NCBI GenBank assembly: GCA_023954495.1 | Contig: JAMLIA010000021.1 | Span: forward strand, 1 to 46,950 | Length of the DNA: 46,950 nucleotides | Direction of reading: 5' to 3' | From: Thermomicrobiales bacterium | GTDB lineage: Bacteria; Chloroflexota; Chloroflexia; Thermomicrobiales; CFX8 | In this document: positions 12,274 through 40,589 of the stretch, one piece after another | How the letters are laid out: each line of letters opens with the position of its first letter | Position numbering within the stretch: position 1 is the first letter of the stretch | Position numbers and translations under genes: made by a program | The notes under the pieces: generated by a model | Seen by the model: only the letters and a program-made list of their open reading frames with translations | Database searches by the model: none | Told to the model about the DNA's origin: nothing

Positions 12274-12704
12274 CCGATCCCTTCGTAGGGACAGCGCTGG
12301 CGCTGTCATCGCCGTGAGGCGACCCTCCCCCGTTGTCATTTCGAGCGCGCACGCGAGAAATCTCTCCTGCGTTTGACTGCGTCGAATGGGTGGGAGATCT
12401 CTCACTGCGGTTCGAGATGACAGGTGAAAAGGTAGGCTACCGATCAGACAACTTGACATTGACAACGCACTCAAAGTGTCGGGGCGTATCGCACACGTCC
12501 GGCCAGATACGCGACCACCCAACAAGGGCACCCGGACACCGTGGTTGCCGATCTGAGTGGGTTGGGGGCCAAACGGGCGTATGCGATACGCCCCTACATT
12601 TCGGGGCCGACACGGTGGGCGATTCTCCAAGGCCGCAATGATCTGCGCGGGAGGGTCGCCTCACGGCGATGACAGCGCCAGCGCTGTCCCTACGAAGGGA
12701 TTGG
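12274..12704. repeat. Foldback element A (56-base terminal inverted repeats)
   Basis: The bases 12274-12329 and 12649-12704 are inverted copies of each other with essentially one mismatch. They flank about 320 bases with no believable gene. The interior holds a palindromic module (12336-12423) of the GAGATCTCTC/GAGCGCGCACGCGAG type. It also holds the 30-base module at 12447-12476, which recurs exactly at 32852-32881, and two GGGCGTATGCGATACGCCC-type cores. No transposase is encoded, so it is MITE-like or a composite repeat island. Arm sequences of the type CGCCGTGAGGCGACCCTCC recur at 14270, 24360 and 46866. Confidence 0.8.
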
Positions 12705-35142: not shown

Positions 35143-35333
35143 CGACGCCGCTCCTTTCCTTCGTTCATCGCGACCATGCTACGCTGCCGACAGCATAGTG
35201 CCCCGCAACTGGTGAGCCGGGACCCTGCCCGGATGAGCAGGTCGCCCCTGCCGACCCGGCTGATGCCGTCGGGATCGGCGCTCGGCACACTTGATACATG
35301 ACACATTCGCCTGAACGAAAGGGGCATATACCA

Positions 35334-36209
35334 ATGAATGCGAATGATGGAACGATGATTCCACAGTCTGGCTTTGCTGATGTCGTCGCCGGTGTCGGCG
35401 CATGGACGGTCGGTGTTGACGCGCGGCGGCGCTACGGTGCGACTGGCATCGTCTGGGCCGAGGGCGTCGTCATCACCGCCGATCATGTCGTCGAGCGGGA
35501 TGAGGACATCGTCGTCATCCTGCCGGATGGCAGCGAAGTATCGGCGACCGTCGCTGGCCGCGACCCGGCCAACGATCTCGCGGTGCTGCGCGTCGATGGT
35601 GCGACCACGGTCGCGCCGCGCGCCGATGCGACGCGGGTTGGCGACATCTGTCTGGCTGTCGGTCGGGCCGGTGGCAACCTGAGCGTGTCGCTTGGCATCG
35701 TGTCGGCAATCGGCACGATCTGGCGGCGACGGCGTGGCGGGATGCGGCGGCAGGTCGTGCGACCGGATGTCACCCTCTACCCCGGCTTCTCCGGTGGCCC
35801 GCTGATCAACGCGACTGGCGAGATGATCGGCATGAGCTCGTCTGGCCGCGGCGGCGTTGTTGCCGTTCCGGTCGCCGAGATCGAGCCGATTGTCACCGAG
35901 CTGCTGACCCACGGTCGGCGTCGACGAGCCTTCCTCGGCATGACGAGCCAGCCGGTCGCACTGCCGACCGCGCAGTCGTCCGGCCAGGAGAGCGGTCTGC
36001 TCGTCGTCGGTGTCGCACCGGAGTCTCCGGCGGCAGCCGGCGGTCTGATCGTCGGGGACATTGTGATCGGCATCGGTGATGCTGCGATCCGCGACACCGA
36101 CGATCTGCGCGAGGCGCTCTCGTCCGACCTGGCTGGGAAGTCGGTGCAGATCCACCTGCTGCGCGGTGGTGCCGAGCAGATGCTCGACGTCACTGTCGGC
36201 GAGCAGTAA
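35334..36209 (+). CDS. HtrA/DegP-like trypsin-fold serine protease with PDZ domain
   Basis: A 291-residue S1C protease. The catalytic triad is His51 (TADHVV), Asp81 (NDLAVLRV) and Ser153 (GFSGGP). Residues about 195-285 form one PDZ domain (GLLVVGVAPESPAAAGGLIVGDIVIGIG). It is shorter than DegP/DegS because it lacks any signal peptide or membrane anchor and has one PDZ domain, so it is predicted cytosolic. The oxyanion block has Phe where most HtrA have Asn (GFSGGP versus GNSGGP). The ATG at 35334 has GAAAGGGG about nine bases upstream. Three bases separate its stop from the LuxR regulator gene, so they are coexpressed and may act together. Confidence 0.92.
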   Translation: MNANDGTMIPQSGFADVVAGVGAWTVGVDARRRYGATGIVWAEGVVITADHVVERDEDIVVILPDGSEVSATVAGRDPANDLAVLRVDGATTVAPRADATRVGDICLAVGRAGGNLSVSLGIVSAIGTIWRRRRGGMRRQVVRPDVTLYPGFSGGPLINATGEMIGMSSSGRGGVVAVPVAEIEPIVTELLTHGRRRRAFLGMTSQPVALPTAQSSGQESGLLVVGVAPESPAAAGGLIVGDIVIGIGDAAIRDTDDLREALSSDLAGKSVQIHLLRGGAEQMLDVTVGEQ

Positions 36210-36212
36210 GGA

Positions 36213-36836
36213 ATGACGAGCGCGCGTCAGGTCGCCCGCGTCGCGATCGCGTCACCCTACCCGTCTGTGCGGGCAGGCTTGCGAGCGATGCTGACGCCGC
36301 TCGAAGCGGTCGAGGTCGTTGCCGATATCATCGGCGGCGATCTCGATCCATCCGATGCTGTCGATGTGCTGGTCATTGATATCGCGCAGGGCGAGCTTGC
36401 CGAATTCGAGCATATGTCGACCACCTTGGCGCACGCCGCGATCGTTGCGCTCGTCGATGATTCCGACGCTGGCCGTCGGGTGCTGACCTCAGCCGGTCGC
36501 CCAATTGCGATTCTGTCGCGTGAGGCGGGGCCGTCTGAGATCAGTGCAGCCGTCCTTGGTGTGCTGTCCGGCCTGATCGTCCTCGATCCGACCGTTGCGC
36601 CAATGGACACGAAAGCCTCTCCGCTGACCGACTACGACCAGACGCTGACCGAGCGTGAGCGTCAGGTGATCGAGCTCGTCGCGCTGGGCCTGCCCAATAA
36701 GTCGATCGCCGTCGAGTTGGGCATCAGTGAGCACACCGTGAAATTTCACGTCGCCTCGATCCTTGACAAGCTGGACGCCGCCAGCCGCACCGAGGCCGTC
36801 GCCATCGCCGCGCGCCACGGGCTGCTTGCGCTCTGA
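36213..36836 (+). CDS. LuxR-family regulator with degenerate receiver domain
   Basis: A 207-residue NarL/FixJ-like regulator. The C-terminal helix-turn-helix is clear: LTERERQVIELVALGLPNKSIAVELGISEHTVKFHVASIL. The N-terminal domain has the receiver plan, but where the acidic pair should be it reads ASPYPSVRAG. The Thr and Lys of the switch are not apparent (ALVDDSDAG and ILSREAG), while an aspartate in DVLVIDIAQ remains. It probably does not respond by ordinary phosphorylation. It is translated directly after the HtrA-like protease, and coupling is likely. The target genes are unknown. A gene-free stretch with repeats follows. Confidence 0.9.
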   Translation: MTSARQVARVAIASPYPSVRAGLRAMLTPLEAVEVVADIIGGDLDPSDAVDVLVIDIAQGELAEFEHMSTTLAHAAIVALVDDSDAGRRVLTSAGRPIAILSREAGPSEISAAVLGVLSGLIVLDPTVAPMDTKASPLTDYDQTLTERERQVIELVALGLPNKSIAVELGISEHTVKFHVASILDKLDAASRTEAVAIAARHGLLAL

Positions 36837-36847
36837 GCAAGACGCCA

Positions 36848-36977
36848 GTGCCAGCAATGGCGAGCAGTCCGATCCGACAGTTAACGCCGCCGCTTGCCAT
36901 TTCGAGCGCGCACGCGAGAAATCTTCCCCGCGTTGGACTGTGTCGGACGGGTGGGAGATCTTTCGCTGCGGTTCAGC
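36848..36977. repeat. Dispersed repeat modules
   Basis: The 36848-36873 module CCAGCAATGGCGAGCAGTCC is shared with 44458 and, inverted, with about 6020. The palindromic module 36894-36975 carries both GAGCGCGCACGCGAGAAATC and GGGAGATCTTTCGC arms as in element A. There is no gene between 36837 and 37123. Confidence 0.7.
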
Positions 36978-39263: not shown

Positions 39264-39301
39264 GCGCCTGACCATTGCCCGACTGTGGCGAGGTCAGGCG
39301 C
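39264..39301. terminator. Possible bidirectional terminator hairpin
   Basis: GCGCCTGACC (39264-39273) and GGTCAGGCGC (39292-39301) form a perfect 10-bp stem around an 18-base loop between the two convergent genes. It overlaps the stop codon of the minus-strand CoA-transferase gene. No T-run follows. Confidence 0.45.
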
Positions 39302-40589
39302 GATTCCGATCCCTGGCGAAGGCGCGCAGTTCGTCGCGGACGCTGGGGTGGGCTATCTGGATCAGTGCCTCGGCGCGCTCGCGCAGGTTCTTTCCATAGA
39401 GATGAGCAATGCCGTACTCGGTGACGACGTAGTGGACGTGCGCCTGGTCGGCGTCACCATCGCGCCCTCGTTGAGCCGCCCGACGATGCGCGAGACCGCC
39501 TCTTTCGGCCGCCATCGGGGGCGGCGCGATGATCGCCTTGCCGCCGTCGGCCAGCGCCGCGCCGCGGATGAAGTCGGTCTGCCCGCCGAAGCCGCTGTAG
39601 ACGCGATCGCCGATCGACGCGGCACAGACCTGCCCGGTCAGGTCGATCTCGATGGCCGAGTTGATTGCGACCATGCGGTGGTTGCGGCGGATGACCGACG
39701 TGTCGTTGTGCGATCGCGGCCATCTCCACTTGCGGGTTGTCGTGGACGAAGTCGTACAGCCGCTGCGTGCCCATCGGGAATGATGTCTGTTACCGGGATG
39801 GATCGGGTTGCGCGTGCCGGTGATGACTCCTGCCTCAACCAGGTCGATGACGCCATCGGAGAACATCTCCGTGTGCAGGCCGAGATTACGGTGGCCACCG
39901 AGTTGAGCCAGCACGGCGTTCGGGATGCTGCCGTGCCCAGTTGCAGGGTCGCCTCGTCCTCGATCAGCGTCGCGACGTGCTCGCCGATCCGGTGTTCGGC
40001 TTCGTCCGGGTTGCGGCATCCGGATTTCCGGCAGTGGCGTATCGACCTCGACGATTGCGTCGATCTGATCAACGTGGATGAAGCCGGCCCCATGCGTCCG
40101 CGGCATCGCCGCGTTCACCAGTGCGATGACCGAACGTGCCTGGTGGATGGCTGCCATCGTGACATCGACCGAGACGCCGAGCGAGCAAAAGCCGTGCGCG
40201 TCCGGTGGCGAGACGTGGATCAGCGCGACGTCAATCGGCAGGAGTCCGGAGGCGAACAGACGCGGTACTTCTGAAAGGAAGATTGGGATGTAGTCCGCCT
40301 GCCCGCTGTTGACCGCCGCGCGGAGGTTCGCGCCGACAAAGAGCGCTTCGTGGCGAAAGCCCGACAGCACCGCTGGCTGCAGGAACGGTGACGCTCCCTC
40401 GGTATGGAGATGAACGAGGCGGACTCCAACCAGTTCGCTGGCGCGTTCCGCCAGTGCGGAGAGCAGCAACGTCGGTGTCGCACTCGCTCCCTGGATGAAG
40501 ACGCGTTGGCCGCTTCGGACGAGCGCGACTGCTTCGGCGCTCGTCCGGAGCTTGAGGCTGTAGCGATCGAGCCAGCCATCTAACGCCAT
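39294..40589 (-). CDS. Acetyl-CoA hydrolase/transferase-like gene carrying several compensating frameshifts
   Basis: The frame is open for 431 residues but only parts resemble the family (4-hydroxybutyrate CoA-transferase / acetyl-CoA hydrolase type). Good family sequence is at 1-190 (ending VDTPLPEIRM), 219-264 (GSIPNAVLAQLGGH, TEMFSDG), 294-358 (YSGFGGQTDFIRGAALADGG) and 382-431. Between them are three stretches whose normal sequence is in another frame: GEHVATLIEDEATLQLGT, MGTQRLYDFVHDNPQVEM and EAVSRIVGRLNEGAMVTPT. At least six single-base indels are needed, near 40005, 39931, 39775-39800, 39712, 39508 and 39447. This is either poor local sequence or a dying gene. If repaired, it would transfer or hydrolyse acyl-CoA. 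Confidence 0.8.
   Translation of the reverse strand: MALDGWLDRYSLKLRTSAEAVALVRSGQRVFIQGASATPTLLLSALAERASELVGVRLVHLHTEGASPFLQPAVLSGFRHEALFVGANLRAAVNSGQADYIPIFLSEVPRLFASGLLPIDVALIHVSPPDAHGFCSLGVSVDVTMAAIHQARSVIALVNAAMPRTHGAGFIHVDQIDAIVEVDTPLPEIRMPQPGRSRTPDRRARRDADRGRGDPATGHGSIPNAVLAQLGGHRNLGLHTEMFSDGVIDLVEAGVITGTRNPIHPGNRHHSRWARSGCTTSSTTTRKWRWPRSHNDTSVIRRNHRMVAINSAIEIDLTGQVCAASIGDRVYSGFGGQTDFIRGAALADGGKAIIAPPPMAAERGGLAHRRAAQRGRDGDADQAHVHYVVTEYGIAHLYGKNLRERAEALIQIAHPSVRDELRAFARDRNRA

Follow-up and report, generated by a model that had tools for sequence, protein, structure and literature searches.

Two adjacent genes lie on the forward strand of the window, by which we mean the whole 46,950-nucleotide stretch of Thermomicrobiales DNA that was analysed. 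The upstream gene (35334-36209, +) encodes protease A, a 291-residue HtrA-like serine protease that has a single PDZ domain and lacks a signal peptide and was characterised from open reading frame calls, Pfam, orthologues and structural neighbours. The downstream gene (36213-36836, +) encodes a 207-residue LuxR/NarL-type regulator with a pseudo-receiver, recognised from open reading frame calls, Pfam, phmmer and a family comparison. Only three bases separate the stop codon of A from the start codon of the regulator (TAA-GGA-ATG), which confirms the gene pair described in the original prediction.

Pfam identified Trypsin_2 and PDZ_2 domains in A, the latter at residues 216-288 (35979-36197, +; E 7.7e-14). 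The protein thus has the architecture of the HtrA/Deg (S1C) proteases, in which a trypsin-like domain with a His-Asp-Ser triad is followed by a PDZ domain. Its scores against the NCBIfam models degP_htrA_DO (163 bits, cut-off 416) and DegS (133 bits, cut-off 423) fall below the cut-offs, and by these models A is HtrA-like rather than a Do-family protein or DegS. A structural neighbour search, which used the first of two fold models of a fused A-regulator chain and gave matches covering the protease part, placed AlgW (Z 29.4, rmsd 2.4, 284 residues), plant Deg1 (Z 29.3, rmsd 4.0, 283 residues) and DegS (Z 29.0, rmsd 3.4, 276 residues) at the top, with Z-scores that are effectively tied. The same genome encodes one further, more distant match to A (34% identity), whose N-terminus includes a hydrophobic stretch (KD 2.6). 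Matches to A in plasmids amounted to 614 records, all below 60% identity, and the eight listed are Do-family, S1C or trypsin-like proteases wherever annotated. A defence-system reading was rejected after PADLOC returned weak generic matches only; the trypsin-containing conflict systems described elsewhere differ from the A-regulator pair (PMC7159879).

The catalytic triad of A is intact and consists of His51 (35484-35486, +; 112/112 in the family alignment), Asp81 (35574-35576, +; 111/111) and Ser153 (35790-35792, +; 109/110), the last within a GFSGG motif (35784-35798, +). This motif had been described as an altered oxyanion motif, a misleading reading because Phe152 is the family norm, present in 109/110 sequences. 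HtrA proteins usually have GNSGG, as do the B proteases described below (Asn in 68/70, triad conserved), and we reject the idea of an altered oxyanion hole in A. The sole exception at Ser153 is a family A member from the window's family of genomes (L130:3971-4846) in which GLAGG replaces the motif and Ala the catalytic Ser. Its locus retains the regulator and the C-terminal tail discussed below; the operator was not found in its upstream region, where the best score was 1.6 bits.

Export or a membrane anchor is usual among bacterial HtrA/Deg members. No signal peptide was found in the window's A, and the alternative start at ATG 35298 adds only 12 residues (MTHSPERKGHIP). Only some 55 bases separate that ATG from the candidate operator, a space where the promoter would be expected, and this position supports 35334 as the probable start codon. 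The reading frame opens no more than four codons before the chosen start in 19/113 A orthologues, too late for a signal peptide to fit (one of the 19, L145, is truncated where its contig stops). Furthermore, in none of 112 A sequences, whose start codons were picked by a simple rule, does any stretch within the first 24 residues exceed KD 1.6, versus 2.6 in the genome's other HtrA protein. Signs of export or anchoring are therefore missing from the A family by both orthologue frames and N-termini. The claim that this protease has neither signal nor anchor holds, since the findings named beforehand as evidence against it, an orthologue signal peptide or an upstream start, were looked for among these frames and N-termini and did not appear.

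In the regulator, Pfam detected GerE (PF00196, E 1.9e-20) and no receiver domain, and among 37 family members GerE was found in 37 and Response_reg in 2. With phmmer, however, the window protein matches ChrA, VraR and NarL across the receiver. The region, at about residues 8-125 (36234-36587, +), is a pseudo-receiver in the sense that a receiver is recognisable while key phosphotransfer residues are missing. As had been noted before, the acidic pair and the switch Lys are lost, being replaced by S14-P15 and Arg, although the phospho-acceptor Asp56 is retained. We compared 91 distinct module regulators with a sample of 29 full-length LuxR proteins from eight class genomes; comparison loci were obtained for only 30 of the places searched, and the 29 include one module regulator, L187, located upstream of A. 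The genome of the window has 16 GerE-domain places. The acidic pair is present in 0/91 module regulators versus 24/29 other LuxR proteins, the switch Lys in 2/91 versus 23/29, and the phospho-acceptor Asp in 22/91, the window protein among them, versus 25/29. All of these residues occur together in 0/91 and 23/29, respectively. The near absence of the acidic pair and Lys gives good support to the suggestion that regulators of this family act independently of phosphorylation.

The recognition helix SEHTVKFH (residues 172-179; 36726-36749, +) contains the family motif HTxKFH, which is found in 90/91 module regulators versus 1/29 other LuxR proteins. The C-terminus is conserved as well: the window protein ends in GLLAL-COOH (36819-36833, +), and hydrophobic last and third-last residues (Phi-x-Phi-COOH) occur at one alignment position in 89/91 module regulators versus 2/29 others. 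The same end is found in 38/40 regulator clusters formed at 60% identity. A hydrophobic end of this form is typical of class II PDZ ligands. A hydrophobic C-terminal residue occurs in 0/112 A and 16/70 B sequences. PDZ domains often bind C-termini (PMC7593790). The two comparison proteins with a Phi-x-Phi end are L187 and L004. The latter (L004:1019-1714, -) is a LuxR response regulator from the window's own genome that has intact receiver residues, adjoins a kinase-like open reading frame and ends in GLVQV.

Upstream of A, a matrix search located a lux-box-like dyad, CCCTGCCCGGATGAGCAGGT (35223-35242, +), which is a candidate operator. It is followed by a second conserved element, CCCTGCCGACCCGGCTGATG (35246-35265, +), aligned by eye with relatives; the aligned upstream regions share a dyad of roughly ACCTRSCCRWWYKKCYAGGT and then roughly CTAGCC-N5-GGNGATG. 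Of 114 upstream regions, 110 were used to refine the matrix once duplicates and short ones had been dropped. A dyad of at least 8 bits is present in 101/110 A upstream regions versus 1.6% of dinucleotide shuffles, where the matrix was trained on the same loci that it scores (the window excepted) and the shuffles were scored without retraining; 9/110 loci have no dyad. The dyad begins 80-150 bases before the A start codon in 80/101 loci. Scored with a matrix whose counts exclude the window, 35223-35242 is the best site on both strands of its 46,950 bases, at 18.28 bits, the next scoring 16.87. Loci without a regulator downstream of A often keep the dyad too, among them L086 (24.1 bits), L082 (22.1), L110 (15.3), L070 (13.7), L080 (12.8) and L069 (9.7). 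A sigma-70 consensus scan of the upstream region gave no match.

In its 20-bp length, its half-sites near ACCTG and CAGGT and its association with a GerE-type helix-turn-helix, the dyad appears similar to the lux box of quorum-sensing LuxR. Quorum-sensing LuxR differs from the window regulator in having an autoinducer domain in place of a pseudo-receiver. The window regulator, with its near-invariant recognition helix, very probably binds the predicted dyad and controls its own operon. Across 28 genomes, a strict pattern found no genome-wide excess of dyads (51 versus 50 for the reversed control), and no regulon is visible by this weak test, whose pattern fails to match even the site in the window. 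Two species of one genus (G065 and G066; L213 and L214) have another strong operator-like site near an open reading frame that looks exporter-like by eye, possibly a second target.

The pairing of A with this regulator is not peculiar to the genome studied here. When 158 genomes of the class were searched with A (match of at least 150 bits), it was present in 82, the window's own included. At these loci the regulator is downstream on the same strand in 69 (two of which, L093 and L152, are cut by the contig end) and upstream in 2; the contig ends in 8, and no regulator lies within about 4 kb in 3 (L080, L091 and L110). The L080 and L091 genomes carry a family regulator on another contig, and the L110 genome only a 175-bit LuxR. 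Counted by genome, 71 have both genes, 11 have A only, 3 the regulator only and 73 neither; no regulator score in the class falls between 193 and 177 bits, the model having been built from 37 members that score high by construction. In a sample of 400 genomes from the phylum, which overlaps the class set, A (E up to 1e-80) was found in 114 and the regulator (E up to 1e-53) in 82, with A alone in 33 and the regulator alone in 1. Of the 82 regulators, 76 follow A on the same strand at a distance of no more than 4 kb, 4 are upstream and 2 are on other contigs. Fisher p-values of 6e-29 for the class and 2e-56 for the phylum ignore relatedness and are indicative only. The survey of linkage that the original prediction had called for thus found the genes side by side in other genomes, where a lack of linkage would have spoken against it.

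A scan of named genome contigs, some of which also belong to the class set, gave 33 A loci, by their names 30 from Chloroflexota, 2 from a 'bacterium' and 1 from Actinomycetota. Leaving out the last (L072, 30% identity), the regulator is downstream in 26 of the remaining 32 and upstream in 2, one of these 3.7 kb away, and the contig ends in 4. Among near relatives of the window the module has a patchy distribution. A genome of the same genus (G102) has neither gene at our thresholds; the genome G103 has A and B, its sole LuxR match being one of 175 bits on a separate contig; and the genome G098 has the regulator and A on different contigs. The 33/114 A-bearing genomes of the phylum sample without a regulator above threshold suggest that A may act alone, and draft assemblies and the strict cut-off may account for some of them.

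A second HtrA-like gene, B, accompanies 55/69 of the A-regulator pairs in the class and is absent from the window. Forms of B with and without a PDZ domain occur, some of those without it being short (L062, L096, L104, L106, L114 and L118). No third conserved gene was found among the top 14 clusters of open reading frames of at least 120 residues from 40 loci. Several of the widest neighbour clusters are antisense to A or B (the two widest to A), and others form a block confined to one lineage. In 19 relatives A and the regulator share one frame, with a single stop between them in 16, as in the window, and two or three in 3. No evidence of read-through or fusion emerged, and the junctions TAA-TTG, TAG-CCC-TTG and TAA-GGA-ATG look like tight coupling.

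The linkage, the loss of phosphotransfer residues, the near-invariant recognition helix, the upstream dyad and the shared tail are all observed in this module. We propose that the conserved operon A-(B)-LuxR of this phylum, Chloroflexota by the names of relatives, may form a self-regulating cytosolic protein-quality switch whose input is PDZ capture of the regulator tail, a reading we favour at a little under an even chance. Here the regulator would bind the dyad upstream of A and so control its own operon. Protease A, as a cytosolic relative of DegS and AlgW, would bind the Phi-x-Phi-COOH tail of the regulator through its single PDZ domain, hold the captured protein and perhaps cut it. When cytosolic proteins misfold and expose hydrophobic ends, these would compete for the PDZ domain, and release of the regulator would alter how A and B are expressed. 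The pseudo-receiver would then take its input from protein capture in place of phosphorylation. Control of the regulator by the protease is plausible, the more so given the conserved PDZ-ligand-like C-terminus. More tentatively, the module may be a phylum-wide cytosolic counterpart of DegS, in which a PDZ protease that reads hydrophobic C-termini captures the tail of a pseudo-receiver LuxR protein and thereby, by way of a lux-box-like operator, determines how its own operon is transcribed.

The operator and the linkage could also be explained without any contact between the proteins, by a plain autoregulated protease operon. The regulator would then be an orphan with a pseudo-receiver that answers to another signal (a ligand, dimerisation or another protein) and is never touched by A or B, and its tail would serve dimerisation or folding of the helix-turn-helix. 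The A-bearing genomes without a regulator are in keeping with this account, as are the fold models: strand pairing of the tail with the PDZ domain of A was seen in neither of the two fused-chain models, where the domains are well folded (pLDDT 88.5 and 85.7; pTM 0.68 and 0.60) and the tail is coil. The fused chain may itself forbid docking in both models, and the alignment behind the first was partly wrong, with the receiver of 32/33 regulator-only rows in protease columns, that of the second being correct. What a plain operon leaves unexplained is a hydrophobic end fixed in nearly all module regulators, when the tails of other LuxR proteins in the class vary, and the close pairing with PDZ proteases. 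We consider it a serious possibility that nonetheless falls well short of an even chance.

The regulator could instead be a substrate rather than a reversible partner, cleaved or degraded by A or B on a signal in an irreversible switch. The catalytic triad conserved in both A and B fits such a role. The helix-turn-helix of DdrO belongs to a different family from that of our regulator. The IrrE-DdrO pair resembles A and the regulator in joining a cytosolic protease to a transcription factor, and differs in that IrrE is a metalloprotease and repressor cleavage is its known mechanism. It supplies the precedent, as IrrE controls DdrO by cleaving it (PMC7593790). The L130 pair, with Ala for the catalytic Ser and with regulator and tail kept, points the other way, since binding without cutting may suffice there, and we regard an irreversible switch as unlikely. 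Far less probable still is that the genes are neighbours by descent only and share no function. Distances correlate at 0.73-0.86 about equally between and within proteins, as co-inheritance would give, but linkage persists over the phylum sample, no other neighbour is as widely common in the 40 loci, and the pair stays together even though the genes are not always in the same order and B is not always present.

The separate parts of the module, a DegS-like protease, a pseudo-receiver LuxR protein and a dyad operator, are of known kinds. DegS and AlgW are the site-1 proteases of the sigma-E/AlgU envelope stress response. Like A, they combine one trypsin-like domain with one PDZ domain, in agreement with their rank among its structural neighbours. 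They are described as PDZ-activated stress sensors, in which protease activity is governed by a PDZ domain that reads the C-termini of proteins that have misfolded (PMC7593790). In contrast to A, which has no signal or anchor and carries GFSGG, they are periplasmic and act on an anti-sigma factor, whereas the likely partner of A is the DNA-binding regulator of the same operon. BldM and WhiI are pseudo-receiver (atypical) response regulators. To our knowledge, neither these two nor VpsT and CsgD are encoded with a PDZ protease or bear a conserved PDZ-ligand-like C-terminus. All four share with the window regulator a receiver-like domain that lacks phosphotransfer residues, joined to a DNA-binding domain. 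VpsT and CsgD are likewise classed as pseudo-receiver (atypical) response regulators in a source that terms the activation of pseudo-receivers a mystery (PMC12632262). Among open-access papers, the scope of our search, no report of the A-regulator combination was found.

How pseudo-receivers are switched can now be addressed directly with purified components, since an entire family of them is accompanied by a candidate partner for the switch and has both a conserved contact motif and a DNA site that is likewise conserved. If the capture reading is true, an entire pseudo-receiver family would gain a defined input, and bacteria would possibly have a further, new way of sensing damaged proteins. 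The phylum would then also have a cytosolic stress response that is built on a protease and differs from the familiar heat-shock regulators.

Two other features of the window were noted. An acetyl-CoA hydrolase/transferase-like open reading frame (39294-40589, -) appears by eye to be partly out of frame at residues 184-293, between two good Pfam matches, and possibly reflects a frameshift or an assembly error. Additionally, a palindrome-like dispersed repeat (TTTCGAGCG..CGCGAGAAATC) occurs at 12337-12363 and at 36898-36924, the latter just 3' of the LuxR gene; the genome holds 22 copies at up to three mismatches, and the reversed control none.
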